Shown here piece after piece: positions 10,158-43,780 of a stretch of 64,000 nt of DNA; within the stretch, counting starts at the first letter, position 1, and every line of letters starts with the position of its first letter. The stretch covers positions 1 to 64,000 of the forward strand of contig JAFGHO010000092.1 of NCBI GenBank assembly GCA_016930085.1, in the 5' to 3' direction. The notes under the pieces are model-generated. The model had not been told where the DNA came from. It worked only from the letters and a program-made list of their open reading frames with translations, and did not search any database. The position numbers were made by a program, and so were the translations under genes. Source of the stretch: Spirochaetales bacterium. Lineage in GTDB: Bacteria > Spirochaetota > Spirochaetia > SZUA-6 > JAFGRV01.

Positions 10158-10239
10158 AAACCCCGGGGCAGCAGACGCATTTCACGATACAAACGATCCG
10201 AAGGGCATCGTAGCGTTCTCGTATCCGTTATACGGTAAT

Positions 10240-28212: not shown

Positions 28213-28348
28213 GCGCCACCGACGGATCCCGAAGAAAGAGGAATTATGCGGGAGAAAAAACGAATATAACCATTAACGGCGGAAAGCCCCGTCATTATAC
28301 TGTTATACATGAAGGGAATATCATATTCAGGAAATGGAGGAAACAATC

Positions 28349-28708
28349 ATGAACACCGTAAAAAGCGCTTTGAAAGACCGCCGCTGCGTGCAGCCAAGGG
28401 AAGGGGACGAACCGCTGCGGGAGGACAGGGTGAAACTTATGAAAAAGGAAATACATCCGGATTGGGAATTAAAAGACGGCCATCACCTTGAACGAACGTT
28501 CAGGACAAAGGATTTCAGGGACGCCCTTGGATTGACGATCAGTATCGGTAAACGCTCGGAAAAAGCGGGCCATCATCCCGATATATCGCTTTCATGGGGA
28601 AAAGTAAAGGTGACGTTGTGGACGCATAAAATAGGGGGCTTGAGTGAGAATGATTTCATCCTCGCCGCGAAAATCGACGATATCAAGACGCCGGCATCGG
28701 CATTTTAA
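28349..28708 (+). CDS. Pterin-4a-carbinolamine dehydratase family protein
   Basis: 119 residues from ATG 28349; ggagg eight bases upstream favours this over the ATG at 28334. The signature EKAGHHPDISLSWGKVKV and the closing THKIGGLSENDFILAAKID match the PCD/DCoH fold and its active-site His-His pair. The enzyme dehydrates 4a-hydroxytetrahydropterin; in bacteria without aromatic hydroxylases the role is unclear, molybdopterin-linked functions having been suggested. Separated by 136 bp from the N-ATPase operon and convergent with the ferredoxin gene. Confidence 0.9.
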   Translation: MNTVKSALKDRRCVQPREGDEPLREDRVKLMKKEIHPDWELKDGHHLERTFRTKDFRDALGLTISIGKRSEKAGHHPDISLSWGKVKVTLWTHKIGGLSENDFILAAKIDDIKTPASAF

Positions 28709-28724: not shown

Positions 28725-28973
28725 CTACATTTCGAAGGGCAGCCTGCCGTTTTCGATGACAATCGCTTCTTCGGGGCACGTTTCAACAGCCTCCCGTACG
28801 CACACCTCGATGTCATAGGGAACCCTGTTATTGCCGCTGTAACCGGGGGAGGCATCGATTGTGTTGCAGCATACGGTCACGATGCCCCCCTCCACTCTGA
28901 ATGTATCCGGACATAGTTCTGCGCACAATCCGCATCCTTCACATAGATCATCTTCGATCCATATATTAATAAT
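28725..28973 (-). CDS. [4Fe-4S] ferredoxin with probable AUU start
   Basis: About 82 residues. Cluster motif CEGCGLCAELCPDTF plus the distal TCPEEAI Cys suit a single [4Fe-4S] cluster, with AELC available for a disulfide as in Desulfovibrio ferredoxins; there is an insertion between the halves. No ATG, GTG or TTG exists at a sensible site: a strong aaaggagg (28986-28979) is followed 5 and 8 bases later by ATT ATT AAT, so translation probably starts at AUU (28973 or 28970). The ribosome site overlaps the stop of the SDR gene. Probably the electron donor for an enzyme of this operon, for instance the radical SAM enzyme. Confidence 0.82.
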   Translation of the reverse strand: MINIWIEDDLCEGCGLCAELCPDTFRVEGGIVTVCCNTIDASPGYSGNNRVPYDIEVCVREAVETCPEEAIVIENGRLPFEM

Positions 28974-28984
28974 CGAAACCTCCT

Positions 28985-29752
28985 TTATTTCACAATAAAT
29001 CCGCCGTCGGCGACAAGACAATGACCGGTCACGAACGAGGACGAATCCGAACACAGCCACAAAACCGCCGACGCTATTTCGTCCGGCCTGCCCATCCGTC
29101 CTATCGGTTCGAGTCCGATAAAGGCTTTTTCCTTTTCAGGGTCCCCGCCGGTCACCCTGTCGATCATCTCCGTGCGTATGACGCCGGGACAGACGGCATT
29201 GATTCTGAGACCGTTCGCCGCGTAATCCAGCGCCGCCGTCTTTGTCAGGCCATTGATGCCGTGTTTTGAAGCCACATACGGGGCGAGGCCGGTGAATCCC
29301 ACCTTCCCCGCGACCGAAGACGTGTTGACGATCGCCCCCTTTCCCCTTTCAAGCATGTGCCTGATCTCGTATTTCATGCTCAGCCAGACACCCTTGAGAT
29401 TGATTGAAATAACCCTGTTCCATTCTTCTTCGCCGTATTCGGCGATCTTTCCCTGTCCGCCTTCTATCCCTGCGTTATTGAACGCGTAATCGACACAACC
29501 GAATCTGTTAATGGTCTCTTCGATCATCTGCCTGACATCGTAGTCCGACGAAACATCGGTCTTGATAAAATACCCCGCACCGGGTTTCCCTTCCATCAAA
29601 AGAAGCGTCTCTTTCGCTTTATCTTCCTGCACGTCGGCGATTGCGACATTGACCCCGTTATCCGCGAAAGCGAGGACCGCCGCCCTGCCGATACCCGCGG
29701 CGCCGCCGGTGACGACGGCCGTTTTCCCCTTTATGTCTTCATATAATGTCAT
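28985..29752 (-). CDS. Short-chain dehydrogenase/reductase (SDR)
   Basis: 255 residues from ATG 29752, eight bases after aaggag; an ATG six bases earlier is too close to that site. Classical SDR: NAD(P)-binding TGGAAGIGRA, NNAG motif (FNNAGIEGG), catalytic Ser in VNTSSVAG and YVASKHG (Tyr-x3-Lys). An Asp after beta2 (IADV) suggests NAD+ preference. The type is like 3-oxoacyl-ACP reductases and glucose dehydrogenases; the substrate is not predictable. Lies 163 bp after the DUF169 gene and directly before the ferredoxin, at the tail of the biosynthetic block. Confidence 0.92.
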   Translation of the reverse strand: MTLYEDIKGKTAVVTGGAAGIGRAAVLAFADNGVNVAIADVQEDKAKETLLLMEGKPGAGYFIKTDVSSDYDVRQMIEETINRFGCVDYAFNNAGIEGGQGKIAEYGEEEWNRVISINLKGVWLSMKYEIRHMLERGKGAIVNTSSVAGKVGFTGLAPYVASKHGINGLTKTAALDYAANGLRINAVCPGVIRTEMIDRVTGGDPEKEKAFIGLEPIGRMGRPDEIASAVLWLCSDSSSFVTGHCLVADGGFIVK

Positions 29753-29921
29753 CTTCATCTCTCCTTTCTTCGTGAAGTGCGCCGGAAGCGCACATATGAA
29801 TAACCGGTTATGATACTATACGAAGGGCAGATGTTCTTGATAATCACGAGGTTCGTTAATTTACTGATGATTATCCCCGGAGGGAACGGGGAAAATACGC
29901 TTTCTCCTCATATCCGGATTC

Positions 29922-30803
29922 TCAATGATGACGATTGAGTCCTTTCGCCCTTCTTCTTACTGCGGGCCAGCCCGGAACCGCTTCCTTGATAATTCCCCCT
30001 TTTATCCTGTCCGAGTAGATGAAACTTCTTTTATAGGCAACGAGTGTTTTTTTAAAGAGTCCGTAGGACATACTCAAGGTCATCTCTCCCGGCGTCATAT
30101 ACGGGCGGGCCGCCGGATCGAATACCCCGATAACGGCGTTTTCCTTGTTTTCCTGTTTGAATTTCATGGGCCAGCTGAATATCGACGCGCATCCGGATGA
30201 AAAAGGAGAACAAACCGCGTCCGCGCGGTCGGTCGTGAACCGCACGAGGCCCACGAGTCCCGCGAGGGCTTCGGCGTTGCAGAAAAAAACGACGATGGCC
30301 GGGTCGACATCCGGCGGAAGGTTGTCCATGGCGTCGAAGACAAGGTATCTCCCCCCCGGCATTAGTCCTTCGAGCAGTTTGGCATGACGTTGGGACGAGG
30401 AGGGTGACGGCGCGAACCGCTCCCCCTTATAGAGCATCGGGAAACCGGTGGACGTAAAAAAGTGATTGAACAACGGAAGTTTTTCCGTATAACCGCTGTA
30501 AAATCGAAAGCCGGGGCAGCCGAAATTATCCTTATCGAAGACCGATGGAATATGGTCCTTCCTCGTTATCGCCAAAAACTGAAACAGACAACGAAAGCGC
30601 TTCCGTTTTTCTTCCATCAGGGAGGCCCCCTTGCCGGCCAGACGAAACAGGTCGCCCGGCCCTTTTATATCGATCGAAAATCCCCCCCGCGGTCCCACGG
30701 AACCTTGCGGTTTCGTATCGGTATAATAGACGGCGAGGGGGTCCGGACAGCAATCGAACACCGACATGAACTCCCTGAACTTCCTGTATATTCCGTGCTT
30801 CAT
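29922..30803 (-). CDS. DUF169 family protein
   Basis: 293 residues from ATG 30803, preceded by aaggcgg; the frame is open upstream but would overlap the carrier-protein gene. Family landmarks: VVFFCNAEALAGLVGLVRF, the Cys motif FSSGCASI and the closing GEMTLSMSYGLFKK. DUF169 (COG2043) has no established function; conserved cysteines suggest redox or metal binding. Ten bases after the carrier-protein stop, so part of the same transcript. Confidence 0.82.
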   Translation of the reverse strand: MKHGIYRKFREFMSVFDCCPDPLAVYYTDTKPQGSVGPRGGFSIDIKGPGDLFRLAGKGASLMEEKRKRFRCLFQFLAITRKDHIPSVFDKDNFGCPGFRFYSGYTEKLPLFNHFFTSTGFPMLYKGERFAPSPSSSQRHAKLLEGLMPGGRYLVFDAMDNLPPDVDPAIVVFFCNAEALAGLVGLVRFTTDRADAVCSPFSSGCASIFSWPMKFKQENKENAVIGVFDPAARPYMTPGEMTLSMSYGLFKKTLVAYKRSFIYSDRIKGGIIKEAVPGWPAVRRRAKGLNRHH

Positions 30804-30813
30804 GCAAACCGCC

Positions 30814-31074
30814 TTACGTTTCCCCTGCGACGACACGGCGGGTTTTTGATTGTATAAATCCCGCAATCGTTCCGACATCCCTGAAATTATCCTCGATGAG
30901 TTCTTCGGGCCTGATGACGATCCCGAAGGCCTTTTCGATGAATGTCATCATCTCGAGAAGTCTCAACGAGGAAACGATCCCCGAATTGTATATCGGCAGG
31001 CGGTCATCGATATCTTTTTCTGGCAGATGTGCCGCTTTTGCTATGAAAGGCACCAGTCGCTCCTGTATGGTCAT
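30814..31074 (-). CDS. Acyl/peptidyl carrier protein (free-standing)
   Basis: 86 residues, a four-helix carrier protein. The 4'-phosphopantetheine site is NSGIVSSLRLLEM, with Ser36 replacing the Ser of the usual DSL motif; the preceding Asp is Ser here. Overlaps the radical SAM gene by ATGA. Its position beside a stand-alone adenylation enzyme and an acyl-CoA-dehydrogenase-like enzyme suggests it carries the aminoacyl thioester those enzymes make and oxidise. Confidence 0.85.
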   Translation of the reverse strand: MTIQERLVPFIAKAAHLPEKDIDDRLPIYNSGIVSSLRLLEMMTFIEKAFGIVIRPEELIEDNFRDVGTIAGFIQSKTRRVVAGET

Positions 31075-32498
31075 GTTTTTACTCCCTGTATGGTTGTTTT
31101 CTTTATCGGAACGCGCGGCATCGTCTTATGGCCGCTGCGGTACCATGAATCGAAGACATGGGCGATATGACGGGCGAAAAACAGGCCGGTCGGGGTGATC
31201 TTCACGATGTCATCCGAAGTAAAACAGAGGAGACCGTCTTTTTCGTATTCACGCAGCTCCTCACACTCACGGGCGAAATATCGGTCGAAATCGATCGAGT
31301 ACATCGCATTGATATGGTTTTTATCGATCTCTCCATCGCTTAATATACTTTTTTGAATAACGCCGTTCCTAATCATATCGTCCGGCGACATCATGTGCGA
31401 CATGTCCGGCCGGAGTGGAAGCCTGCCTTCGTCAATCGCGGTGAAATAGTCTTTGATCGAAGTTGCATTGTGAAAATAACCGTTTCCGGAAAAACTGATG
31501 GCGGAACTGCCGAAACCGATAAAGGCACGCCGGGCGTCCCGGGAATACCCCATGAAATCCTTGACGATTCTTTTTTCACAAGCCGCACGCCAGAGGGGAT
31601 TTTCGGGTTTCACGAAATGGTCGATACCGATTTTCCGGTACCCCGCGGATATCAAAGCCGCTTCACACTCCATGAAGACAAGCACCTTCATAAATGAATT
31701 CGGAACGCCCGATTGAGGTATGAAACGCTGCATCGGGAAAAGCGCCGGATAATGGGCGTACGGAAAGAGCGCGATACGGTCCGGATTCATGTCGATCACC
31801 GTCCGTATCGTCGTTTCGCTTTCGTGCAATCCCTGAAACGGGAGTCCGTAACAAAGATCGATGTGAACCCGCAATCCGGCTTTTTTGGCATTCGTGACGA
31901 TCCGCCGGACCGTTTGTTCGTTACAATCCCTGTTGATCGCACGCTGGATACGGTTGTCGAAATCCTGAATCCCGAAACTGATTTCATTAAAGCCAAGGTC
32001 GCGGAGGAGTTTCAATTTATCGAACGGGAGGTCCGTTTCATCCGGATAGGCCTCGATCGATATCCCACCCCCTCCGGCGTTCTCTACCCGTATATTATCC
32101 GTAATGGCGGTAAAGACATCCTCGATCTGTTTGCAGCCGAGATAGGTGGGGGTTCCCCCTCCCCAATGCATCTCACGGAGTCCGCCGCGGATGACGGATG
32201 AAATAAGGGGAAGTTTTTGCAGCAACTCCTTCTTGATATACCGGATGTAGGTTTCCTTTTTTTCTTCATCCCCGGTCGCTTCCGAATAGCAGCAGCAGTA
32301 ATAGCAGTGTTTTTTACAATAGGGAAAGTGAAAATAAAGGAACGATACGGACTCATCTGAAAACGAACGATAATAGACATCATCATCAGACCTCGACCCC
32401 CAGAAGGCGGTCGTCGGATAGCTGAGATAAAGGGGTATATTCGTTTCATTATATTTTTTGCAGAGATATTCCAATGCCAGAAGATCACGCGTATTCAT
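31071..32498 (-). CDS. HemN-like radical SAM enzyme
   Basis: 475 residues. Cluster motif HFPYCKKHCYYCCC (CX3CX2C plus extra Cys), GGGTPTYL, SIEAYPDETD and the FGIQDFDNRIQRAINR block match the HemN family, and a C-terminal HemN-type domain follows (FIGFGSSAISF). True coproporphyrinogen oxidases belong to haem synthesis, but no haem gene is near. HemN-like proteins in natural-product clusters are class C methyltransferases or cyclopropanases using two SAM molecules, which fits this operon better. Overlaps both neighbours by ATGA. Confidence 0.85.
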   Translation of the reverse strand: MNTRDLLALEYLCKKYNETNIPLYLSYPTTAFWGSRSDDDVYYRSFSDESVSFLYFHFPYCKKHCYYCCCYSEATGDEEKKETYIRYIKKELLQKLPLISSVIRGGLREMHWGGGTPTYLGCKQIEDVFTAITDNIRVENAGGGGISIEAYPDETDLPFDKLKLLRDLGFNEISFGIQDFDNRIQRAINRDCNEQTVRRIVTNAKKAGLRVHIDLCYGLPFQGLHESETTIRTVIDMNPDRIALFPYAHYPALFPMQRFIPQSGVPNSFMKVLVFMECEAALISAGYRKIGIDHFVKPENPLWRAACEKRIVKDFMGYSRDARRAFIGFGSSAISFSGNGYFHNATSIKDYFTAIDEGRLPLRPDMSHMMSPDDMIRNGVIQKSILSDGEIDKNHINAMYSIDFDRYFARECEELREYEKDGLLCFTSDDIVKITPTGLFFARHIAHVFDSWYRSGHKTMPRVPIKKTTIQGVKT

Positions 32499-34171
32499 CG
32501 TGCCGCTCCTGCAGCGTATTCCTCCGCCGTCTGCCGGTTGTTCGCCCGTTCCTGGAGTTTCAGACGGTCCGTTTTTCCGTTTGTATTTTTCGGCATCGAC
32601 CCTAAAACGATTATCTCTTCCGGAATCATGTACCGGGGGATGACACCTGCCAGAAACGATTTCAGTTCGATCGCCCTGATTTCAGCAGTTCCCGTTACCG
32701 TAACGAATGCCGCCAGGTACCCGGCATTGATCCGGTCCGAGTCATATACCGGAACAACGACGGCCTCCCCCACCCGGGCATGTTTGAGAAACGCCGTCTC
32801 CACTTCCTGCAACTCCACGCGAAATCCCGAACATTTGACCATCAGATCCTTCCTGCCGACATACCGGTACTCCCCTTCACCGACAACCCTCACGATGTCC
32901 CCCGTCCGGTAGAACAACGCCCGGTTGTGGCGGGGAAGCGGACTCTCCCTGAAACACGCCTCTGTCCTCACCGGATCCCCGTAATAACCACTGCACACGA
33001 GCGGTCCCCTTACCAGAAGTTCCCCTTCTTCGCCTGGTAAAGCCTCGGTATCGTCAACCTTGACGACGATCGTTTCCGTGCCCCGGCACGCGCTTCCGAT
33101 CGGGACTGGGATATCGGTAACGGAATCCCTGTCACGGACGTGATAAAACGTACAAACATTCGTTTCCGTGGGGCCGTAGAGATTGTAATACTCGGCGCGG
33201 GGAATCAGGCCCATGAGCCGTCTGAGATGCCGTGGCGGGAAGACCTCGCCCGCGAACAATATGTGGGTGAGGCTTTGCATCGAATCCCGGTGAATATTCG
33301 CATAGTGCAGTATCGAAATCCAGACGGAAGGAACCGAATAAAAATAGGTAATCCGGTTTTCTTCGATCCAATCCACAAGAGCACGGGGATTGCCGCTCGC
33401 CGTCTGAGGAAGAATCCTCACGGACGCGCCGCAGGCAAGTGGGACGTAAATATCGAAGACCGAAAGGTCGAAATGCAGCGGCGCTACATTGGAAAACACA
33501 TCACGATTGCCGGGTCTGAAGGTCGAGAGCGCCCAATCGACGAATGCGCGTGCGTTCCGGTGTGAAATGACCACCCCCTTCGGATCTCCGGTCGACCCGG
33601 ATGTATAGAGGATATACGCAGGATCGCCATCCGTGACAGCAGGATCGATATCGATCGCATCCGCGTCCGATCCGTCACAATGATGAAAACACACGAGGCC
33701 GTCGTTTTTTGATACCGCCCGGGGTGTTCCCCCGCCCGCGCCTGCGTCTTTTTCGAGAAGATTATCGACCAGAATGACATGCATTCCGGAAATAAGGCCC
33801 GATTCCACGCCGGAGATCTTTGATACAAAGCCTCCCCATAATCCCGATGTCGTGACGATATACCTCGTCCCGCTTGATGCGATAATATTCTTGATGCGGG
33901 CGGGCGGCGAATAGAACGCATCGAGCGGGATATAGATGCCGCCGGTTTTCAGAACCGCAATCATTGTGACGATAGCCTCAATCGACTTGTCGATGTATAC
34001 TCCCGCGGTACTTCGTGGCCCGAAGCCCAATGCGATCAGCCGGCGTGCGAGGGCGTTGCTTTTCTCCCGTAATACCCGATAGGTGATCTCGATATCGCCG
34101 GCCCCGACGGCAACCGCACCGGGATAACGCCGGGCTGATTTTTCAAAAAGATGATGCAACAGACGATTCAT
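32495..34171 (-). CDS. Stand-alone amino-acid adenylation enzyme (NRPS A-domain type)
   Basis: 558 residues. Adenylation core motifs: ILYTSGSTGDPKGVVISH (A3), FDLSVFDIYVPLACG (A4), NLYGPTETNVCTF (A5), LFYRTGDIVR (A7), and the C-terminal Lys region MPKNTNGKTDRLKLQ (A10). It resembles enzymes that load an amino acid such as L-proline onto a separate carrier protein more than acyl-CoA ligases. The amino acid cannot be read with certainty. Overlaps the dehydrogenase gene upstream and the radical SAM gene downstream by four bases each. Confidence 0.88.
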   Translation of the reverse strand: MNRLLHHLFEKSARRYPGAVAVGAGDIEITYRVLREKSNALARRLIALGFGPRSTAGVYIDKSIEAIVTMIAVLKTGGIYIPLDAFYSPPARIKNIIASSGTRYIVTTSGLWGGFVSKISGVESGLISGMHVILVDNLLEKDAGAGGGTPRAVSKNDGLVCFHHCDGSDADAIDIDPAVTDGDPAYILYTSGSTGDPKGVVISHRNARAFVDWALSTFRPGNRDVFSNVAPLHFDLSVFDIYVPLACGASVRILPQTASGNPRALVDWIEENRITYFYSVPSVWISILHYANIHRDSMQSLTHILFAGEVFPPRHLRRLMGLIPRAEYYNLYGPTETNVCTFYHVRDRDSVTDIPVPIGSACRGTETIVVKVDDTEALPGEEGELLVRGPLVCSGYYGDPVRTEACFRESPLPRHNRALFYRTGDIVRVVGEGEYRYVGRKDLMVKCSGFRVELQEVETAFLKHARVGEAVVVPVYDSDRINAGYLAAFVTVTGTAEIRAIELKSFLAGVIPRYMIPEEIIVLGSMPKNTNGKTDRLKLQERANNRQTAEEYAAGAAR

Positions 34172-35322
34172 GCGTACTCACTCCTTATTTTTTCCGAAAT
34201 TATTCTCCTTTGAATCTCCGATGTCCCGGAATACACGGTCGCCGCGATCGAATCACGCAATTGTTTTTCGACCCTGCTTTCTTTCATGTACCCGTATGCG
34301 CCGAAAATATGCGATGCCGACATACTGTTGGCCACCTTCGATTCGGAAGCGTACAGCTTCACCATCGCGGCGTCCGGGAGATCCGCCTTGCCGCGATCAT
34401 AATCCCAGCACACGCGATAAAGAAGCAGCCGTGCGGTTTCGATCCTCATTTTCATATCCACGAGCCTGTCCGCCACGCTCTCGAACCCGATGATACTTCG
34501 GCCGAATTGTTTGCGCATCGAAGCGTACCCGGCGGTCAGTTCGTATTGCTGTTCCATCGAACCGATATGATAGGCCGCCATAATGACCCGTTCCCACATC
34601 ATACTGTCATTGAATATCTCCATTCCCATACGTTCCCTCCCCAGAAGACCGTTTTCATCAACCGCACACTCATCCAGAACAATCTCACTCAGGGGAGCCG
34701 TACGCAATCCCATTTTTTTGAACACCTGCCCCACGCGTAATCCCGGGTTATCCGTTCCCACGATAAACGCCGAAACGTCGAGCATCTTCATTCCCTGCGG
34801 ATGTTTCGCGTATATGACAAGCAGGTTCGCGACGGGACCATTCGTAACGAATATCTTTGTTCCCTCAAGCCGGTACCCGCCGGCCGTTTTTTTCACCGTT
34901 GTTCGCATTGACGACACGTCCGATCCTGCTTCCGCTTCGGTGATACCATTGCCCCCGATATACTCCCCGCTGCAAAGCTTCGGAAGGAATCGCCGCTTCT
35001 GTTCCTCCGTTCCGAAACGGAAAACGGGGACAACGCATGTAAGCATGTGGGCGCAGAGTGAAAAAACAAGTCCCTCGTCGTGACAGCCATACCCGAACGC
35101 CCGAATCGCCATTGCGGTCGAAAGCATATCAAGGCCGATACCGCCGTATTCCTCGGGGATGGGCAATCCCGGCAGACCGAACTCGCCGCACGCCTTCCAT
35201 TTTTCCGAGGGGAAAACCGAGGTTTCATCATCTTCATGGACATGATGGTTCAGCCGTTTGCCGCAAAGCGTGAGGATTGCCTGCCGTATTTCATCCTGTT
35301 CTTCCGTTATCGTAAAATCCAT
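34168..35322 (-). CDS. Acyl-CoA-dehydrogenase-like flavoenzyme (aminoacyl-carrier-protein dehydrogenase type)
   Basis: 384 residues from ATG 35322, with aaagggg upstream. Flavoprotein landmarks: GLVFSLCAHMLTCVVP, NGITEAEAGSDVSS, KIFVTNGPVANLLVI, RKQFGRSIIGFESV and ATVYSGTSEIQRRII. The pattern of residues around CAHML, NGITEAEAGSD and MWERVIMAA resembles prolyl-carrier-protein dehydrogenases (PltE/RedW type) that convert prolyl to pyrrolyl thioesters, as much as fatty acyl-CoA dehydrogenases. Next to a stand-alone adenylation enzyme and carrier protein, oxidation of a carrier-bound aminoacyl group is the favoured role; this is inference. Confidence 0.85.
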   Translation of the reverse strand: MDFTITEEQDEIRQAILTLCGKRLNHHVHEDDETSVFPSEKWKACGEFGLPGLPIPEEYGGIGLDMLSTAMAIRAFGYGCHDEGLVFSLCAHMLTCVVPVFRFGTEEQKRRFLPKLCSGEYIGGNGITEAEAGSDVSSMRTTVKKTAGGYRLEGTKIFVTNGPVANLLVIYAKHPQGMKMLDVSAFIVGTDNPGLRVGQVFKKMGLRTAPLSEIVLDECAVDENGLLGRERMGMEIFNDSMMWERVIMAAYHIGSMEQQYELTAGYASMRKQFGRSIIGFESVADRLVDMKMRIETARLLLYRVCWDYDRGKADLPDAAMVKLYASESKVANSMSASHIFGAYGYMKESRVEKQLRDSIAATVYSGTSEIQRRIISEKIRSEYA

Positions 35323-35400
35323 TCCGTTGTCCCCTTTCATACATTCCGTATCTATCGATCCATGACGCTCCATAGCCGAATCCAAAAACGATCCGCCGTA

Positions 35401-37110
35401 TTAACCGACGCCGGCGATCGGGATATCGTTAAAAAGCAGACGGTTCCGCACGGGAATCCCGATTACGGCCCATTCGGCGAGTACGTTTTTGCGTACCTTT
35501 CCCGACATCAGTACCGGAAATTGCGAAACAAAATAAACTTCATCGGGTATTTTGTAATTGGCGATTTTGCCACGGCAGAAAGCCTTCACTTCCCCCGGCG
35601 TCATGCCGAAGTGCGGGTCCGGTATGACAAACGCGACAATGCGTTCCCCTAAAATATCGTCCGGCCTTCCGACCACTGCGGCGTCCTCGATACCCCGGCA
35701 GGATAAAAGGCACTCCTCGACGTCGATGGGATACACATTGAAGCCGCCCCTGATTACCATATCCTTGCACCTGCCGACGATTTTAATGTTGATCCCGTCG
35801 TCGTGGTAGCATGCGAGATCACCCGTGTACAGCCACCCGCCGTCGTCGATGACTTCCGCGGTTTTCGCCCCGTTTTTATAATAGCCCGCCATCAGGTATC
35901 CCCGTACCGCGAGTTCACCTACTCCGCCCTTCCCTACTTCCCGCCTGTTTTCATCCACTATCTTCACCTCCACACCCGGTATCGGCCTGCCGACCGTGTT
36001 CAAGCGGATCTCCTCATCGTCGTCCGGCCGTGTCGCGGTGACGACGCCGGTCGCCTCTATCAGGCCGTACGCGTTGAGAAGCGGGCACCCCACGGCTTCC
36101 CGTATTCGGGAAGCAAGGTGAGAAGAACAGAGAGAACCCGAGACGACGACTTTTCTCAGGTGAGAGAAATCGATATGGCGGAACGCCGACAGGGACACAA
36201 GAATGGCCCACATTGTCGGTTGCGTATGAAACGCGGTCACTTCTTTCCGGGCCAGATGCTCGAGGATATCATTCGGGTTGAAACGGGATATCCATTTCAT
36301 CGTCACGCCGGCGACAAGATCGATCAACACGGCGAGAAATCCCTGAGCAGCATAAAGGGGCGCGACGGAAAAAGCGACTTCGTCTTCGACCTCCCAAAGC
36401 GCAGCCGTATAACAGGACGTCAGCACCAAATTCTTGTGCGGAATCATCACACCTTTCGGTGTTCCGGTCGTCCCCGATGTATATGCCAAAAGCGCGATAT
36501 CGTCGGGGTCGACGGCCTCTTCCCCGTCTTCGGACACCCGGCCGTCGTCTCCTGCCGTCAAATCGCCGTCTTCGATTGTCAAATCGCCGTCTTCGATTGT
36601 CAAATCAACGTCTTCGATTGTCAAATCGCCGTATTCGGTTTCGGATTCCCGAATCAACCTGTAAAACGGCACACTTCCCGGCAGGGTACCCAGACCCAGA
36701 CATACGGTGACATGGATGCGCGGCGATGATTCCGTTATCCCGGCCAGGATATCGTTATAATCGAATGTTCCGACCCTGTCCTGATAGACAATTGCGACCG
36801 CGTCCGAATCGTCAATGACGGATCTCAGTTCATCGAGTTCATAACGGGTACTCAAGGGAACCGCCCATGCGCCGATCATAAACAACGCGAAATAGACATA
36901 CATGTATTCGAGGCAATTGGGAAGCAGTATGGCGACTTTATCATGCTTCTTTATACCGAGACGCCGCAGCGAACGCGACAACCTGTTCGAATGCGCATGA
37001 AGTTCCCGGTAGGTGATTCGTTTTTCGCAGAATATGATCGCCGGTTTATCCGCATATTTTTTCGCGACGGACGAAAGCACACAGTCCAATGTCGGTGTTT
37101 CAAACATCAT
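35401..37110 (-). CDS. AMP-dependent acyl-CoA synthetase/ligase
   Basis: 569 residues. Core motifs: LLAYTSGTTGTPKGVMIPH, NAYGLIEATGVV, WLYTGDLACYHDDG, VIRGGFNVYPIDVEE and the catalytic Lys region PVLMSGKVRKNVL. It activates a carboxylic acid (fatty or aromatic) to a CoA or carrier-protein thioester. Unusual is an acidic heptapeptide repeat, DLTIEDG-like, inserted about residue 158-185 just before the ATP-binding loop. Lies 35 bp after the unknown 349-residue protein and 78 bp before the dehydrogenase gene. Confidence 0.9.
   Translation of the reverse strand: MMFETPTLDCVLSSVAKKYADKPAIIFCEKRITYRELHAHSNRLSRSLRRLGIKKHDKVAILLPNCLEYMYVYFALFMIGAWAVPLSTRYELDELRSVIDDSDAVAIVYQDRVGTFDYNDILAGITESSPRIHVTVCLGLGTLPGSVPFYRLIRESETEYGDLTIEDVDLTIEDGDLTIEDGDLTAGDDGRVSEDGEEAVDPDDIALLAYTSGTTGTPKGVMIPHKNLVLTSCYTAALWEVEDEVAFSVAPLYAAQGFLAVLIDLVAGVTMKWISRFNPNDILEHLARKEVTAFHTQPTMWAILVSLSAFRHIDFSHLRKVVVSGSLCSSHLASRIREAVGCPLLNAYGLIEATGVVTATRPDDDEEIRLNTVGRPIPGVEVKIVDENRREVGKGGVGELAVRGYLMAGYYKNGAKTAEVIDDGGWLYTGDLACYHDDGINIKIVGRCKDMVIRGGFNVYPIDVEECLLSCRGIEDAAVVGRPDDILGERIVAFVIPDPHFGMTPGEVKAFCRGKIANYKIPDEVYFVSQFPVLMSGKVRKNVLAEWAVIGIPVRNRLLFNDIPIAGVG
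36557..36640 (-). repeat. Four-copy 21-bp in-frame tandem repeat inside the acyl-CoA ligase
   Basis: Four units of 21 bases (plus-strand unit begins gtcaaatcgccgtcttcgat) differing by one to three bases; they encode heptapeptides such as DLTIEDG. The array sits in a surface insertion of the ligase and keeps the frame whatever its copy number. Confidence 0.92.
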
Positions 37111-37145
37111 AATCTTCTCCTCGCCTCTTGTTGTGATCGATCCCC

Positions 37146-38192
37146 TTATATGAGATCGCCGGTATCGAATCCCGGGAAATAGACAGAGGCCTCCTTTTGA
37201 TCAAGCACGGACCCGATACACAACGGCACTTCATCGTTTCTCTGTAATGCGGTGAGGACGTGCATGATATAGCGGTAATTATCGTTGAAAAGCCGGATCG
37301 CGATCGATTGAACCAGCATCCCGATATACGCCCCCGGATACAGATTCGTGTTGAAAAGACGGTGACGGGGCCCGATACAGAAAAAACGCTTCATATGTGA
37401 AATACACATAAAAAGAAACCTGCCTATATCAACATGACCTGTTTCCTGATTGTTGACCGATACAGTCCCGCTTTCAATAAGGGTTCCGTTCAGACTGAAA
37501 TCGGCCCCGATGCCGCCTGAAGTTTTCAGGATTCCGCCGGCGCTGAACCCGACATTCTTCATGATGTCGTGCAGGACCAGCCTGTAACGAACGGGCGGCT
37601 TGTTTTTTAAAAGGTACACCCCTTCCGAACATAGGGTGTCGCCGTCGATCACGCTGTCAATTACTTCTTCTTCAAAGGCGAAGGATTCCGGCCGGCAAAC
37701 CTCATACCCGTTTTTTTTCATCAGCGTATCGCAGGAGTACATTCCGCTCAACACCTCGAATACATGAAAACAATGGGTATTTCTCACCTTCGCTTTGTTG
37801 ATGATTGTTCCGTCAAACACATGGCCGGTCAGCTCGCGCTGCAGCCGCCGGTTCAGATGATTCCGGGAACACATCAGTCCCTTGCTGCCCCTAAAAGAAT
37901 CGTCGAGTTCGACGGATTCGATCCTGTGCTTTTCGTTCAGAGCCACCGTTATAACAGCCGGCAAAGAAACATCCATGCCACCTATCCTTCCAACGTTTCG
38001 CTGCCATCCCGTTATCCTCGGACGGGCCTCCCCCTCCCGCAGATCGACCACCGTTCCGCGATACCTGCATGTGGGTGACGTCCGATCCATCGTGACGGCC
38101 GGCGAATCAAGCACCTTCTTTCTCAGATCATCGACAGCATCATATTCTCCGATCAACAACCCGGCATTCTTCTTTTCCATTATTGTTCTCAT
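37146..38192 (-). CDS. Hypothetical protein of the biosynthetic operon
   Basis: 348 residues from ATG 38192, chosen because aaagga precedes it; this leaves 22 bases after the KAS III stop. I do not recognise the family with confidence. A cytoplasmic, soluble protein. The middle part (DVSLPAVITVALN, MCSRNHLNRRLQRELTG, VRNTHCFHVFEVLSG) has the order of Cys, RRL and Cys/His elements seen in DUF2889 proteins, but the match is loose. A Gly-rich block, FSAGGILKTSGGIGADFSL, lies further on. Its place between KAS III and acyl-CoA ligase argues for a role in the same pathway. Confidence 0.7.
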   Translation of the reverse strand: MRTIMEKKNAGLLIGEYDAVDDLRKKVLDSPAVTMDRTSPTCRYRGTVVDLREGEARPRITGWQRNVGRIGGMDVSLPAVITVALNEKHRIESVELDDSFRGSKGLMCSRNHLNRRLQRELTGHVFDGTIINKAKVRNTHCFHVFEVLSGMYSCDTLMKKNGYEVCRPESFAFEEEVIDSVIDGDTLCSEGVYLLKNKPPVRYRLVLHDIMKNVGFSAGGILKTSGGIGADFSLNGTLIESGTVSVNNQETGHVDIGRFLFMCISHMKRFFCIGPRHRLFNTNLYPGAYIGMLVQSIAIRLFNDNYRYIMHVLTALQRNDEVPLCIGSVLDQKEASVYFPGFDTGDLI

Positions 38193-38214
38193 ATATTGTT
38201 TTCCTTTACCGTCA

Positions 38215-39288
38215 TTACCATAATATGTGAAGGAATGAATAGGAGAGGCCGCACGCACTGCTTATGAGTATGACCGAATCTCCTTTGTCGATACACCCGC
38301 GTTCCCGGGCTACAGCAAGATTGACCGGAAGATTGGCACTCCCCATATTTCCGTATTCGGAGAATGTGTTGACGGGGGCTTTACTTCCTGGAACCTTAAG
38401 CGCATCGAGTGTTCCGAACGTCACATTGTTTCCGAGTTGATGCATCACAAAAAGATCGAAATCTTCCGTCTTCATTTTCCACTCCGCTAATGTCCGGCCG
38501 AAAAATACCGGAATATCCTTTATAACCTGTGCCGCGATCAGTCGCGCGTTCGTCAGCATGCCGGGACTTCCCGGACCCGACGATGAACCGGGTACTGAAA
38601 TACCGGGAACGGTCAAAATCGATGCGTCCCATTGCCGTGTTCCCTTTTTTTCACCGGTATTGACGATCCGTTTCCCGGTTTGACCGCTGATAACGGCGGC
38701 CGCGGCACCGCTTCCGGCAATAAAACCGGAAAACCGAACATCCGCCTCCTCCACCGTTTCGAGCCGGTAATCGATACCGAGACCCGCAGCGAGTTCATAG
38801 GGATTTTCACTCGAAACGACCAGAACATTGCCGTATTTTCCCGTCCGAATGTATTGGGATGCGATATCAATGCTTTTCATGAAGCCGTTACAGGTATCAT
38901 TGATATCGAAGTAATCCGCCGGTTCCATTCCCAAAGAGGCGGCGACCGCCAGCGACAGGGGGGGTTCGCGGAAAGGATTGGTCACGCCGCAGACGATGAC
39001 GCAGTCGATATCCCTTCTATCCAGAGACGCATCTCCGAGTGCCAGTACGGCCGCTTTCCGGGCCATGGAGACCGAGTTGTCATCGCTTTCTTCCGGACAG
39101 AAACTCCGCGTCCGGATGCCCAGGAACTCGAACTTTTTTCCCGTGCCGTAGACCAGCAGGCGGAGATCATCCTTACCCATATGGCCTTTATTCGCTTTTT
39201 CGAGTGCATGAAGCACATCGTCATTCGTCAGTCTTCCTTCCGGTATATAATAGCCCAAAGATCTGATATATACATTATCAGTTCTCAT
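38215..39288 (-). CDS. 3-oxoacyl-ACP synthase III (KAS III/FabH-like)
   Basis: 357 residues. The catalytic triad of FabH-type enzymes is complete: Cys133 in DINDTCNGF, His in FVMHQLGNN and Asn in EYGNMGSANLP. It condenses a primed acyl thioester with an ACP-bound extender, or acts as a transferase. It is not in a fab operon but in a cluster with two carrier proteins and two acid-activating ligases, so a starter-unit role in a small-molecule pathway is likely. Overlaps the upstream carrier-protein gene by 11 bases. Confidence 0.9.
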   Translation of the reverse strand: MRTDNVYIRSLGYYIPEGRLTNDDVLHALEKANKGHMGKDDLRLLVYGTGKKFEFLGIRTRSFCPEESDDNSVSMARKAAVLALGDASLDRRDIDCVIVCGVTNPFREPPLSLAVAASLGMEPADYFDINDTCNGFMKSIDIASQYIRTGKYGNVLVVSSENPYELAAGLGIDYRLETVEEADVRFSGFIAGSGAAAAVISGQTGKRIVNTGEKKGTRQWDASILTVPGISVPGSSSGPGSPGMLTNARLIAAQVIKDIPVFFGRTLAEWKMKTEDFDLFVMHQLGNNVTFGTLDALKVPGSKAPVNTFSEYGNMGSANLPVNLAVARERGCIDKGDSVILISSACGLSYSFLHILW

Positions 39289-39619
39289 TCAATACCGCCT
39301 TTACCTTGTTGATCGATTCTTCGCCGTTTTCGGGTGCTTTTGAGGGATCCTTTTCCCGGAAAAATACCCTGTAAGCGTCGCCGACATTCTTTATCGTCCA
39401 TAATGTGTCCATTGCACAGTCGATCTTGTATTCCGTTTCGAGCCTGATGATGAAATTCATGAGACTCAACGAATCAATTCCCAAATCCTCGACGAACAAC
39501 GCGGTATCCGTTACGCTGTCCCGGTCAACCCCGAGATATTCCGCGACCATCGCTTTAAAGGATTGAAAACTTACATCCCCTTTAAAACGTCCGGAATCAT
39601 GATTCATGTCGCTTTTCAT
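39278..39619 (-). CDS. Acyl carrier protein (second)
   Basis: 113 residues, with a non-conserved N-terminal 15 and a C-terminal extension around an ACP fold; the phosphopantetheine Ser50 lies in DLGIDSLSLMNF, a canonical site. ATG 39619 follows a strong aaggaggaaaa and overlaps the stop of the DUF2807 gene (ATGA), linking the biosynthetic genes to the transporter/regulator genes upstream. Presumed partner of the KAS III encoded next. Confidence 0.88.
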   Translation of the reverse strand: MKSDMNHDSGRFKGDVSFQSFKAMVAEYLGVDRDSVTDTALFVEDLGIDSLSLMNFIIRLETEYKIDCAMDTLWTIKNVGDAYRVFFREKDPSKAPENGEESINKVKAVLNEN

Positions 39620-40335
39620 TTTTCCTCCTTGCGGATAAATCCGGCACCTTCAAAAAACTCTATGGAATGTTCGCCGATGATCCCGCCGCAGGTAACGGTA
39701 ATACCGCCTCTCACTCTGCCGTCCAGCACACCCCCGGACATATTCAACGCGATATTCCCTCTGCCCGTAAGGTCAAGTGTCGCATTGGATATGGCGCAGT
39801 CATCAAAATCGAAATCCAGCACACCCGTTCCGGTGACCGACAAATCAGTTATCCGTGAATCGCTTCCCCTGATCCGTTTACTGTAGCCGGTCGTCTCGAT
39901 AGAGAGAGACGATTCGTCGAATCCGGAAAAGTCTATGTCGGCACCCCCACTGCATGTTATTCTTTTAAGCCCCGGCATAGAAATCGTAATTGCGATCTCT
40001 TTCGGGGGTATGCCGGTAAAAAATGCCTGGTTTACTTTAAGCGTACGGTCCACGCTCGCTATCCTTATGTATTTTATAACATATTCGGGCCCCACAACTG
40101 TTACCCGGTATGCTTTATCCGATTCTATCTTCGTTTTCCAGAAACCGGTCAGGTCAATCACGTCGAAGTCTTTGATCTCATACTCCTTTCGAACGATTGT
40201 TTTCGTACCTTTTTCAATTTTGACGAGATCGGAATTATTATGAATAAAGAATAATCCGATACTGACGATCATCACCCCCGTGATCACGCACACTATGGCG
40301 ATCGTTACCAGCAAGATGGAAGTGCTTGTTTTCAT
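39616..40335 (-). CDS. Membrane-anchored DUF2807 protein
   Basis: 239 residues: one N-terminal membrane helix (SILLVTIAIVCVITGVMIVS), then an extracytoplasmic beta-solenoid of DUF2807 type (FDVIDLTGFWKTKI near the start, IAITISMPGLKRITCSGGAD, repeated LDLTGRGNIALNMSG-like strands). Such domains occur with ABC transporter/GntR or sigma factor loci and probably sense or bind envelope ligands. Overlaps GntR upstream and the carrier protein downstream by four bases each. Confidence 0.85.
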   Translation of the reverse strand: MKTSTSILLVTIAIVCVITGVMIVSIGLFFIHNNSDLVKIEKGTKTIVRKEYEIKDFDVIDLTGFWKTKIESDKAYRVTVVGPEYVIKYIRIASVDRTLKVNQAFFTGIPPKEIAITISMPGLKRITCSGGADIDFSGFDESSLSIETTGYSKRIRGSDSRITDLSVTGTGVLDFDFDDCAISNATLDLTGRGNIALNMSGGVLDGRVRGGITVTCGGIIGEHSIEFFEGAGFIRKEEK

Positions 40336-40763
40336 GTTTTCTCCTCTGATGCAGGTCTCGTTTTTTCCGAAGCCCCGTCCTCCTGACCGTCTTTGTGCAG
40401 ACGGGCGCTTTTATATTCTTTATACATCTTCTTCAGTTCGGCAATATCGATATCCAGAAGGATCATACTTTTGAGCATCCGGGGTAACTGCTCGTGGAAA
40501 AAGGCTTCCCTCCCCAGTTTTCGGGTGCTTTGCAGCGCCTCCCCGGCGATAAAATAGCCGATACCGCGCTGGTTATAGACAATCCCCTTTTCCTGCAGAT
40601 AATTGTATGTGTGCATCACCGTATTCGGATTGACCTCGATACTGACGGCCAACTCCCTGACGGACGGCAGACGGTCGCCTTCGCGCCAGTCCCCGGACAG
40701 AATATGCTCGGTAATATAATCCGCTATCTGCAGGTATATCGCCCTGTCCTGCTTGAAGTTCAT
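40332..40763 (-). CDS. GntR-family regulator, YtrA type
   Basis: 143 residues. A standard GntR winged helix (IYLQIADYITEHILSGDW, LPSVRELAVSIEVNPNTVMHTYNYL, GIGYFIAG) with only a short C-terminal dimerisation tail, the YtrA subfamily. These are local repressors of ABC transporter operons, often induced by envelope-active compounds. The 11-bp inverted repeat at the operon head is its likely operator, giving autorepression. One base separates it from the permease gene. Confidence 0.92.
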   Translation of the reverse strand: MNFKQDRAIYLQIADYITEHILSGDWREGDRLPSVRELAVSIEVNPNTVMHTYNYLQEKGIVYNQRGIGYFIAGEALQSTRKLGREAFFHEQLPRMLKSMILLDIDIAELKKMYKEYKSARLHKDGQEDGASEKTRPASEEKT

Positions 40764-40764
40764 T

Positions 40765-41559
40765 TTACACCTCTATTTCTTTCAGACGGAAATATGATGT
40801 GACCCACAATAACGGCGCAAGGCCGAACCAGAAGAAAATATTGGCATTATATGCAAGCAGGACGGCGATCGTACGGATAACGGACGGTTCACCGAAACCC
40901 TTCGGCCCTGTTTGAGTAAAAAGTTCGAATGAAAAATAGATATGACCTCCGGCAGACAACACCAGATACATGGTTAAAAAGACCGCCGCGGCGAAAAGCA
41001 CGTAACATGTCGCCAGACCGAACAATCCCAGGATCGTCTTGACAAATGCGCTTCTTCTAAAAAAAACCGCGCCGAACAGAAAGACGGACTGCGTAATGCA
41101 GTACACCCTGATGCAAAGCCATATGACCGGGTGAAACGGATTGAAGATACGGTGCGCAAGCCCGAATATGAGGGTATTGACAAAGAAAACCAAAACGGAA
41201 AAAAGAAAATAGACAACAAGGGAAAAAATGACATACCCGATACTCGTGATAATAAGTTTGCTTGAGAATTTTTCCAAAACCGATGCGGGAATGACGATAT
41301 AGGAAACTCGGCCCTGCTCGTGATAGAGTTCATTGAAACCGAGACTGGTAAAAATAAAACCGCCGATAAAAAGGGTAAGCGGATAAAATACCAGGTTGAA
41401 ATTCCAGTATTTGGCACTTGCTATGGAAGCGACATTGACAATCATGAGAATACAGAAAATCGCACCCAGCCCGATGAGATACGTCCGGTATTGCATATAC
41501 ACATCCCGTTTTATCAATAACCAGAATCGCTTGATATTAAAAAAATCGGTGATTCTCAT
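40765..41559 (-). CDS. ABC transporter permease
   Basis: 264 residues with six hydrophobic helices and no extracellular domain, ABC-2-like. Helices include IGLGAIFCILMIVNVASIAS, FSLVVYFLFSVLVFF and TIAVLLAYNANIFFWFGLAPL. Encoded with, and overlapping by 23 bases, the ATPase gene; the two form an exporter of unknown substrate. In YtrA-type operons such exporters concern antimicrobial resistance or product export. Confidence 0.85.
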   Translation of the reverse strand: MRITDFFNIKRFWLLIKRDVYMQYRTYLIGLGAIFCILMIVNVASIASAKYWNFNLVFYPLTLFIGGFIFTSLGFNELYHEQGRVSYIVIPASVLEKFSSKLIITSIGYVIFSLVVYFLFSVLVFFVNTLIFGLAHRIFNPFHPVIWLCIRVYCITQSVFLFGAVFFRRSAFVKTILGLFGLATCYVLFAAAVFLTMYLVLSAGGHIYFSFELFTQTGPKGFGEPSVIRTIAVLLAYNANIFFWFGLAPLLWVTSYFRLKEIEV

Positions 41560-42418
41560 TTTTTTCCTCCGGCTGCTTCTCTTTTTTCATAAAAATGGCA
41601 TTCATTCTTTCCCTGTCGCTAATCACTGCGTTAAAGAGTATTTCGAGATCGACCGACGATACTCCGTTTACCGTATCGTCACAGAGCGCCGCGTACCCGC
41701 CGATCACCTTTTCGTAAAAAATACATTGTCCGGGGCCGGGAGTATCGGGAAGAAGCTTTACGGTCAGCCTGTCGTTCACCTCTTCCATCGATTGATGGAA
41801 GATAATCTCCCCATCATCGAGGATAAGAATCGGGTCGATCAATTGCTGCATGTCCCTCGCCTGATGTGTCGATACCAGAAAAATGCGATCGTCTGTGACA
41901 TTTGAAACCAGTAATTTTCGAAACTGGCTTTTACTCGGGATATCGAGTCCATTGGTAGGTTCGTCCATGATAAAAAGGCGGCAGTTCGTCGCAAGCCCGA
42001 ACGCAATCAGGAATTTCTTCCGCTGCCCGTATGAGAGACCGGTCAATGTATCCTTTTCGGAAATTGCAAACTCTTGCAGATAACCTTCGAGTTCATTCCT
42101 GCTGAATCGCGGATAAAAAGGGCCGTAGAGAAATATGTATTCTCCGACGGTTAAATTCGGCGTGAAAAACTCCTCTGTAATGAAATAGATATCTGAAAGA
42201 AGGACAGGATTTCGATCTTTCGACATATATCCCATTACCCGGCACTCGCCATTATGAGGGAACAGGGTGCCGCAGACGATCTTCAGGAGGGTTGTTTTCC
42301 CCGCCCCGTTTTTACCCAGCAATCCGTAAATGTTGCCCGCGGCAAGATTGCAGTTGAGCTGCGAAAAAAGCCTTTTCTTTTTTCGATAGCCGAAAGAAAG
42401 ATTGGTAATCTGTATCAT
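41537..42418 (-). CDS. ABC transporter ATP-binding protein
   Basis: 293 residues. Walker A GLLGKNGAGKTTLLK, signature LTGLSYGQRKKFLIA (LSYGQ form), Walker B RLFIMDEPTNGLD and H-loop FLVSTHQARD are intact. The last 80 residues form a small accessory domain. First gene of the minus-strand operon: its ATG lies just downstream of the promoter and the inverted-repeat operator. Energises the adjoining permease. Confidence 0.93.
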   Translation of the reverse strand: MIQITNLSFGYRKKKRLFSQLNCNLAAGNIYGLLGKNGAGKTTLLKIVCGTLFPHNGECRVMGYMSKDRNPVLLSDIYFITEEFFTPNLTVGEYIFLYGPFYPRFSRNELEGYLQEFAISEKDTLTGLSYGQRKKFLIAFGLATNCRLFIMDEPTNGLDIPSKSQFRKLLVSNVTDDRIFLVSTHQARDMQQLIDPILILDDGEIIFHQSMEEVNDRLTVKLLPDTPGPGQCIFYEKVIGGYAALCDDTVNGVSSVDLEILFNAVISDRERMNAIFMKKEKQPEEKNENHRFF

Positions 42419-42431
42419 TGCTTCCCTTTCC

Positions 42432-42457
42432 TACTGTACTAGACCACTAGTACAGTA
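42432..42457. promoter_or_regulatory. Perfect 11-bp inverted repeat, probable GntR operator
   Basis: Arms tactgtactag and ctagtacagta separated by four bases. It lies immediately downstream of the -10 box and 14 bases before the ABC ATPase ATG, the place where YtrA-type repressors bind; the core resembles GTACTA-TAGTAC sites described for that subfamily. Confidence 0.78.
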
Positions 42458-42459
42458 AT

Positions 42460-42488
42460 AATGTAGCACATGAATAACAGGAAGTCAA
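42460..42488 (-). promoter_or_regulatory. Promoter of the ABC/GntR/biosynthesis operon
   Basis: On the minus strand: -35 TTGACT (42488-42483), 17 bases, -10 TACATT (42465-42460). The start of transcription would fall within the inverted repeat. Confidence 0.72.
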
Positions 42489-42607: not shown

Positions 42608-43780
42608 TTATCGTTCTTTGCGGTTATCTTCCCTGTATTCCGACGGCGACCGGCCTTCCTGCATCTTGAAGATATTATTGAAATACGAGGTACTGTTGAA
42701 TCCAAGATTAAATGCGATATCGGTAATTCTGAGATCGGTCTCCTTGAGCAGCCGCTTTGCTTCCTCGATCCGCATTTCATTGATGATTTGCTTGAATGTA
42801 CGATTATATTCTTTTTTCAATACCTCGAATACCCGTGAAGAAGGAATACCGAGCGCCTTGTATACCATCGTGGTCGATATCTGCGGATCGATGTAATGTT
42901 CCTCCAGATAGGTGTTGATGCGGTGAAGTTCCTGTTCCCGGTATGAAGCGAGTGCGAGTGATTTTGGCCTCGGTATTTGACTTTTCCGCTTTTTTATCAA
43001 CCACCGCACTCCCATGACGGCAAGAAAAATATAAAAAAGAACCGCCGCACCTGAAAGCAGGGCGGTGGCAAGCGAAGGGTTGTGCTGAAAGGTAATCCGT
43101 TCGATAACGATATGTTCCGGTTTGTCGATGATATAATCGGACCCCTCCCTGTTGAACTGAATATCGAAGGCAATCACTTTTTTAAAAGATTCTTTGGGAA
43201 GGAGGCTTTTATTCACCTTCATCATCGTAATCCACCAGGGGGGAGTCATAAAATCCTCGAGCGGGATATTATATTCAATCTTTTGAGGATCAAGCTTAAG
43301 GATATATTGATTATGCCTGAGTGTATGCGCGTTGGCGGCTTCCGGCATGGATACACCCGGCACAAAGGTTTTCAGAAATATCTGTATCCGCTTCATTGTC
43401 GCCTCCCTGATATACAGGGAAAGCGTGTCATATGAGGAAAGATCGAGAGGATGTTCGACCGTCCCTATATTAAGGGTAAAAAACACTAAGACATTTTGCG
43501 GCTCCTCTTTTAAGGTATATTCTTTCAGGGTATAATCGAGTTCTATCACTCCGCCGTCAAATGAAAATTCCTGAATCCGGGAATTTCCGTCCCAGATATT
43601 ATCGGTAAGTGCGGCAAGCCGGTTTTCCAGGTTCTCTGCGGGAAAAACCGTCAGTGGCTGTCTCAAGAAATCAAGGAGCGGGAAAACGGATAAAACCAAA
43701 GCCGCGACGATAATGCAAAAGAGTATAATACTTTTTTTATTAAAAATATCGTTTTTGTTTTTCTGTTGTATCGAAGTCAT
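42608..43780 (-). CDS. Membrane-bound AraC-family transcriptional regulator
   Basis: 390 residues from ATG 43780, preceded by aggtggg. The N-terminus has one membrane helix (SIILFCIIVAALVLSVFPLL), then an extracytoplasmic domain of about 200 residues, a second helix (LLSGAAVLFYIFLAVMGVRWL), and a C-terminal double HTH AraC domain (VYKALGIPSSRVFEVLKKEY, ITDIAFNLGFNSTSYFNNIFK). It should read an external signal and regulate in one step. Divergent from the Fur-type gene; not evidently linked to the biosynthetic operon, from which it is 120 bp upstream. Confidence 0.88.
   Translation of the reverse strand: MTSIQQKNKNDIFNKKSIILFCIIVAALVLSVFPLLDFLRQPLTVFPAENLENRLAALTDNIWDGNSRIQEFSFDGGVIELDYTLKEYTLKEEPQNVLVFFTLNIGTVEHPLDLSSYDTLSLYIREATMKRIQIFLKTFVPGVSMPEAANAHTLRHNQYILKLDPQKIEYNIPLEDFMTPPWWITMMKVNKSLLPKESFKKVIAFDIQFNREGSDYIIDKPEHIVIERITFQHNPSLATALLSGAAVLFYIFLAVMGVRWLIKKRKSQIPRPKSLALASYREQELHRINTYLEEHYIDPQISTTMVYKALGIPSSRVFEVLKKEYNRTFKQIINEMRIEEAKRLLKETDLRITDIAFNLGFNSTSYFNNIFKMQEGRSPSEYREDNRKER

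Follow-up and report, generated by a model that had tools for sequence, protein, structure and literature searches.

A rare, conserved spirochaete gene cluster that may direct synthesis of a pyrrole-containing small molecule with an OleA-like condensing enzyme and a HemN-type radical SAM enzyme

Proline-derived pyrroles are made by pathways known from actinomycetes, proteobacteria, and cyanobacteria. In clorobiocin and coumermycin biosynthesis, the CloN1-CloN7 set includes two carrier proteins, a homologue of beta-ketoacyl-acyl carrier protein synthase III (KAS III), a proline adenylation enzyme, a prolyl dehydrogenase, and a radical S-adenosylmethionine (SAM) enzyme. The same components are encoded in the 64,000-nucleotide stretch of DNA analyzed here (the window; positions 1 to 64,000 of contig JAFGHO010000092.1, forward strand), which belongs to the 5.36-Mb, 96% complete draft genome of a Spirochaetales bacterium (GCA_016930085.1) and contains 15 minus-strand open reading frames (ORFs) at positions 28725-42418 (Table 1). 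The CloN set also has an acyltransferase (CloN2), and its CloN6 is a methylase of the B12 type; the spirochaete cluster differs in having no sugar acceptor and an extra acyl-coenzyme A (acyl-CoA) ligase. With the prodiginine, pyoluteorin, and aminocoumarin modules (PigI/PigA/PigG, PltF/PltE/PltL, and CloN4/N3/N5) it shares a proline adenylation enzyme with the same specificity code, a prolyl dehydrogenase, and a small carrier. In contrast to prodiginine-type modules, it lacks the prodigiosin-type ketosynthase and aminotransferase genes of the comparison clusters, its partners are an OleA-type KAS III, a HemN-type enzyme, and a protein of no known family, and it occurs in spirochaetes in an apparently anoxic setting, the hosts probably being uncultured anaerobes. 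The locus is a real, conserved, and rare biosynthetic cluster, and about even weight is given to its being an operon for a pyrrole-containing small molecule, made by forming a ring from proline, joining it head-to-head to a second acid, and processing the product with a HemN-derived enzyme.

All 15 genes listed in an earlier note on this DNA are present in the order given there: ATP-binding cassette (ABC) transporter ATPase, permease, GntR regulator, DUF2807 protein, acyl carrier protein 1, KAS III, a protein here called unk, acyl-CoA ligase, a flavoenzyme of the acyl-CoA dehydrogenase (ACAD) type, adenylation enzyme, radical SAM enzyme, carrier protein 2, DUF169 protein, short-chain dehydrogenase/reductase (SDR), and ferredoxin. 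The family assignments made there also agree with the family matches, the permease, which has no Pfam match, being identified through homology. The junctions had been described as mostly 4-base overlaps, which overstated the case: such overlaps occur at five of 14 junctions (40332-40335, 39616-39619, 34168-34171, 32495-32498, and 31071-31074), the others being different overlaps or gaps of 1-163 bp. When aligned with homologues, four genes seem to begin later than their ORFs (unk probably at 38192, ACAD at 35322, DUF169 at 30803, and ferredoxin at 28979); with these starts, the gap between the ligase and ACAD genes spans 35323-35400, as noted earlier, and the SDR and ferredoxin genes no longer overlap. 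Transcription of all 15 genes from one promoter had been proposed as well, and this is plausible from the ABC gene to DUF169; the SDR and ferredoxin genes, which lie beyond a 163-bp gap (29759-29921), may or may not be included.

When unk was used as a query against 60 relatives, a single homologue was recovered, from a genome that shares the family but belongs to a different genus. Its contig carries 13 of the 15 genes, from the ABC ATPase through DUF169, with order and orientation unchanged and with 29-66% identity, and then ends. About 85,000 genomes scanned with a pattern yielded the same contig only (JAFGKU010000223.1, from the metagenome-assembled genome Spirochaetales bacterium Zod_Metabat.353), and unk had no further credible match in the GTDB contig collection or in 393 genomes of the phylum. 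One borderline match (genome G244; E = 0.001, 18 bits) contains stops and was discounted. The gene order is real and not an accident of one genome, and the divergence between the two clusters implies that the set has been kept together over long times. Homologues scattered singly through related genomes had been named beforehand as evidence that would count against a cluster; instead, the core is syntenic in both genomes. Its expected rarity was also borne out, with two species carrying it within the collections searched. Profiles of the KAS and the dehydrogenase found no other spirochaete pyrrole cluster at a comparable score; the spirochaete dehydrogenase matches at 320-340 bits resemble general acyl-CoA dehydrogenases, a judgement made without inspecting their neighbourhoods. 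Plasmid-borne clusters with similar dehydrogenases mostly include an adenylation partner and have no KAS, HemN-type, unk, or DUF169 genes.

The ten specificity positions of the adenylation enzyme, placed by hand on what we take to be the GrsA register, read DLFYLALVCK. The second cluster has exactly this code, as do prolyl-dehydrogenase-linked enzymes of Microvirga, Streptomyces clavuligerus, and Methylocystis (the last from a cluster that we read as prodigiosin-type), whereas three other adenylation comparators deviate from it at one or more positions. The best structural matches of the flavoenzyme are the prolyl-ACP dehydrogenase 4IRN (336 bits) and the L-prolyl-PCP dehydrogenase 5ZW0 (300 bits), and its active-site glutamate, Glu265 of a WER motif, aligns with these structures and is conserved. 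Together, a proline code in the adenylation enzyme and a flavoenzyme resembling prolyl-carrier dehydrogenases mean that a pyrrole (or pyrroline) thioester would be derived from L-proline, a prediction that the sequence supports well. The adenylation enzyme would load L-proline on carrier 2, and the flavoenzyme would oxidize it to pyrrole-2-carboxyl-S-carrier or halt at the pyrroline; proline loading and oxidation are strongly supported as predicted steps. The earlier proposal that a carrier-bound amino acid is oxidized by the flavoenzyme is thereby upheld, with L-proline as the amino acid indicated by the code and the dehydrogenase type. AnaB of anatoxin biosynthesis carries out a two-electron oxidation, and 4IRN, the better of the two structural matches, is presumably AnaB, a maker of pyrroline rather than pyrrole. 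If the flavoenzyme likewise removed only two electrons, KAS III could join 1-pyrroline with an acyl group to give an acyl-pyrroline or a bicyclic amine; however, the NCBIfam ranking favours the pyrrole-forming PigA and the HemN-derived partner suggests a pyrrole, and this outcome is considered unlikely.

In OleA and PpyS, a glutamate deprotonates the acyl group bound to the active-site cysteine, loss of this glutamate abolishes product formation by PpyS, and condensation is head-to-head (PMC4578411). Cys133, His283, Asn314, and Glu108 are present in the KAS III of both clusters. Glu108 aligns to OleA Glu117, the structure 5vxh has an aspartate in the same column, and the host's two ordinary FabH proteins have no acidic residue there. 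A profile of the two cluster sequences ranked OleA structures (3s21 and 3row) at the top, tied with one FabH at 97 bits each, and a small tree without PpyS grouped the cluster KAS with OleA and one other glutamate-bearing spirochaete KAS (90/84 support, long branches). A KAS III with the OleA-type glutamate occurs in a distant spirochaete family (genome G193, contig C115, 17361-18374). OleA-type head-to-head joining by the cluster KAS III is likely, as predicted from the active-site residues and the small tree. The acyl-CoA ligase would activate a second acid, R-CH2-COOH, and Cys133 would accept the resulting acyl group; Glu108 would remove the alpha proton, and the carbanion would attack the carrier-bound pyrrolyl thioester to give pyrrolyl-CO-CH(R)-COX. 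These roles can be deduced from the lack of an alpha hydrogen in the pyrrolyl thioester, which makes the ligase-derived acyl group the nucleophile and the pyrrolyl-carrier the electrophile. The earlier suggestion that the ligase activates a second acid, which KAS III then joins, is supported and can be narrowed to a KAS III of the glutamate-base, head-to-head kind.

The cluster differs from the OleA olefin and beta-lactone pathways and from the PpyS/PyrS pyrone synthases in having a predicted carrier-bound pyrrolyl partner rather than a fatty acyl-CoA, and in lacking recognizable OleB, OleC, and OleD: there is no OleB beside it, no OleC is named among the 60 best structural matches of the ligase, and the SDR is of the classical type. 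A different role for the KAS III homologue is suggested by clorobiocin CloN1-CloN5, in which case it would pass pyrrolyl on from carrier 2 to the other carrier for later transfer to an alcohol or amine, with no carbon-carbon bond formed and the ligase feeding a separate branch. The co-occurrence in one operon of a proline adenylation enzyme, a prolyl dehydrogenase, two carriers, and a KAS III-like protein is consistent with such a shuttle, which would also give carrier 1 a task. However, a full Cys-His-Asn triad with an OleA-type glutamate base would then be superfluous, and an acceptor scaffold or acyltransferase gene is absent, which together make the shuttle quite unlikely. Within the acyl-CoA ligase gene, an in-frame 21-bp tandem repeat of about four copies (DLTIEDG-type) was observed at 36546-36637.

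The radical SAM enzyme aligns along its length with E. coli HemN (259 bits, compared to 74 bits for NocN, the second structural match) and scores 354.6 bits against the HemN equivalog cut-off of 324.95, compared to 124 for the HutW-type family. It keeps all radical-SAM residues examined, including those of the SAM site, and has the fourth cysteine of CxxxCxxCxC, which is absent from the HemW and HutW comparators; this cysteine sets bacterial HemN apart from HemW (PMC10964404). The cluster protein is the only one above the HemN cut-off in either genome, and searches for HemB and HemC found neither protein in the two genomes, while some relatives have them. Apart from its occurrence in genomes without HemB and HemC and its biosynthetic operon setting, the enzyme differs from HemN in motifs that are invariant in seven HemN comparators and altered in both cluster copies (PRYTSYP to PLYLSYP, RNFQG to KDFMG, and DHFA to DHFV). 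The RNFQG change places a methionine at the position of E. coli Gln311, which we take to be an important residue in HemN. With HemB, HemC, and any second true HemN missing from the two genomes, a role in heme synthesis is unlikely. The enzyme could instead be an ordinary coproporphyrinogen oxidase that salvages scavenged porphyrinogens from an incidental position in the operon, as its passing of the equivalog cut-off and its retained radical-SAM residues would allow; the missing HemB and HemC, the changed motifs, the way its gene in the window overlaps those for the adenylation enzyme and the carrier by 4 bases each, and its unchanged surroundings in the second cluster all argue against salvage and make it very improbable.

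The simplest reading of these sequence features is that a HemN has taken a new substrate in a pyrrole pathway. Methylation or cyclopropanation of the class C-like type (Jaw5, CoeI, and NosN) might replace decarboxylation, given that HemN-like enzymes perform such chemistry in known biosynthetic clusters (PMC9714029) and that NocN is the second structural match. This is held to be improbable, as HemN is much closer than NocN or the HutW-type methylases by the scores above, and the cluster enzyme has the fourth cysteine that the HemW and HutW comparators lack. In a genome of the window genome's family (L092; G002 contig C44, 1-9000), a NifH-, NifD-, and NifK-like set recognized by eye from the ORFs adjoins a NifB-like radical SAM gene and a gene for a 458-aa HemN-related radical SAM protein.

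For the last steps of the pyrrole pathway we infer that the native chemistry of HemN, abstraction of a hydrogen beside a pyrrole and loss of CO2 to leave a vinyl group, would convert pyrrolyl-CH2-CH(R)-COOH to an alkenyl-pyrrole, following a reduction or dehydration by the SDR, unk, or DUF169, and that the GntR-controlled ABC module upstream may respond to or export the product. Decarboxylation of a small pyrrole acid by the HemN-type enzyme is possible by analogy. A more specific proposal is that an OleA-type ketosynthase joins the proline-derived pyrrole head-to-head to an acyl group and a HemN freed from heme synthesis then acts as an alkenyl-pyrrole-forming decarboxylase, so that the pathway would parallel the OleABCD olefin route without a need for oxygen; this is speculative and rather unlikely. 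Several points, in addition to the likeness of the flavoenzyme to AnaB, weigh against the pathway as a whole. The flavoenzyme falls below both NCBIfam equivalog cut-offs (420 of 500 bits for PigA and 352 of 650 bits for RedW), so it is of prolyl-dehydrogenase type and not a proven PigA or RedW orthologue. The placement of the KAS with OleA has moderate support on long branches, an OleA reaction that runs on CoA esters leaves carrier 1 without a clear task, and the reduction or dehydration required ahead of decarboxylation has no assigned enzyme. In addition, the SDR may lie outside the conserved cluster, Hem genes could fall in assembly gaps (completeness of 96% and 84% for the two genomes), and the pathway is a prediction from sequence.

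YtrA-type GntR regulators are reported to be associated with long palindromes and with single ABC operons (PMC4494728). The upstream part of the cluster resembles such operons in its GntR with a short C-terminal part, its ABC ATPase and permease, and its single long palindrome upstream of the operon, and differs in being followed on the same strand by at least nine biosynthetic genes. The putative operator has arms matching at 11 of 11 positions, a score seen in 0.2% of 112-bp stretches drawn at random from the window. Promoter and terminator scans were near chance level overall; a TTGAC...TTACATT-like sequence also precedes most other spirochaete copies of the ABC/GntR module. In nine of ten stand-alone modules a related palindrome (TAGTGTA..TAG....TAGTACACTA-like) lies between promoter and start codon, and upstream of the ABC gene in the second cluster a degenerate form is found. 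The conservation of this operator before free-standing ABC-permease-GntR operons across spirochaetes (L057-L065) makes it usable as a regulon motif. The permease has homologues in 31 of the 61 genomes searched, both cluster genomes included, and at the ten stand-alone loci the order is ABC, permease, GntR, with DUF2807 next in two.

The earlier note credited the cluster with its own exporter and repressor, a claim that is not sustained, since ABC-permease-GntR is a widespread, free-standing YtrA-type module of spirochaetes that occurs without these biosynthetic genes and has its own conserved operator; a dedicated exporter is thus unproven. The module is tied to the pathway by position only, and export of the product is possible, with no specificity pointing to it. 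It is conceivable that two units are adjacent by chance, an ABC/GntR/DUF2807 operon for general envelope stress and a biosynthetic operon that has no relation to it. The many spirochaetes in which the module stands alone with its own operator speak for this arrangement. It is nevertheless somewhat doubtful given the same-order adjacency in two genera, the 4-base overlap of the DUF2807 and carrier 1 genes in the window, and the presence of the permease in only two of the five genomes of the window genome's family, those that carry the cluster (by itself a weak argument for linkage). A gene for an AraC-type regulator with a long N-terminal part (42608-43876) precedes the ABC gene by 189 bp, in the same orientation, and could also control the operon.

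For unk, an AlphaFold2 model from the two sequences had a mean pLDDT (predicted local distance difference test score) of 39.6. A distant relationship to DUF2889, suggested by motifs that look alike by eye, had no significant backing from profile comparison (E = 0.1, probability 0.6%) and counts as a lead at most, and no DUF2889 match above the cut-off was found among the 61 genomes searched. On DUF169, the literature holds passing mentions only. In a relative (L089; G006 contig C147, about 7400-10536, minus strand), the immediate neighbours of a DUF169 gene are a gene resembling a metal-ABC binding protein on one side and hemB (ALAD) on the other, a hint at most of a link to metals or tetrapyrroles. 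The SDR has no close homologue in the second genome (best 38% identity), whose cluster contig stops before the SDR position. Plus-strand genes for a pterin-4a-carbinolamine dehydratase (28334-28708) and ATP-synthase alpha/gamma-like proteins (25767-28212) converge on the end of the cluster.

Table 1. Coordinates and characteristics of the cluster genes and the upstream sites in the window; identities are to the second cluster.
Feature	Position	Strand	Family, motif, or comment
Promoter-like site	42460..42488	-	TTGACT-17-TACATT with extended TG; sigma-70-like, 9/12 match
Putative GntR (YtrA-type) operator	42432..42457	-	TACTGTACTAG-TGGT-CTAGTACAGTA, a perfect inverted repeat; follows the promoter and precedes the ABC start
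ABC transporter ATPase	41537..42418	-	PF00005; 58% identity
ABC permease	40765..41559	-	No Pfam family; 53% identity; homologues adjoin ABC and GntR in many spirochaetes
GntR-family repressor	40332..40763	-	PF00392; YtrA-type by size and context; 56% identity
DUF2807 (head GIN) protein	39616..40335	-	PF10988
Acyl carrier protein 1	39278..39619	-	PF00550; DLGIDSLS serine
KAS III-type condensing enzyme	38215..39288	-	Glu-base (OleA/PpyS-like) kind; Cys133, His283, Asn314, Glu108
unk protein	37146..38192 (ORF open from 38258)	-	No family; two genomes only
Acyl-CoA ligase	35401..37110	-	ANL superfamily; 64% identity
Prolyl-carrier-protein dehydrogenase type flavoenzyme (ACAD)	34168..35322 (ORF open from 35385)	-	NCBIfam PigA best, RedW second
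Stand-alone adenylation enzyme	32495..34171	-	Code DLFYLALVCK (L-proline); PDB 6o6e L-proline--PCP ligase among best single-domain matches
HemN-type radical SAM enzyme	31071..32498	-	CxxxCxxC(C)C; altered HemN motifs
Carrier protein 2 (presumed prolyl/pyrrolyl carrier)	30814..31074	-	PF00550; GIVSSL serine; 53% identity
DUF169 protein	29922..30803 (ORF open from 30878)	-	PF02596; 49% identity
Classical SDR oxidoreductase	28985..29758	-	Cluster membership undecided
4Fe-4S ferredoxin	28725..28979 (ORF open from 29060)	-	PF13459; cluster membership undecided

Within the open-licence literature, no paper was found that unites prolyl, pyrrole, dehydrogenase, HemN, and gene cluster, and no relevant paper connects OleA-type synthases with pyrrole carboxylate; the enzyme set is one for which no characterized counterpart was found. 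To our knowledge, no pyrrole product has been described from this spirochaete family, and we have not previously met a pyrrole module combined with a condensing enzyme of the OleA type or with a HemN derivative, the latter here in genomes that lack HemB and HemC. The cluster offers a testable claim on the borrowing of HemN chemistry outside tetrapyrrole synthesis, and it provides a concrete context for the new protein family unk and for DUF169.

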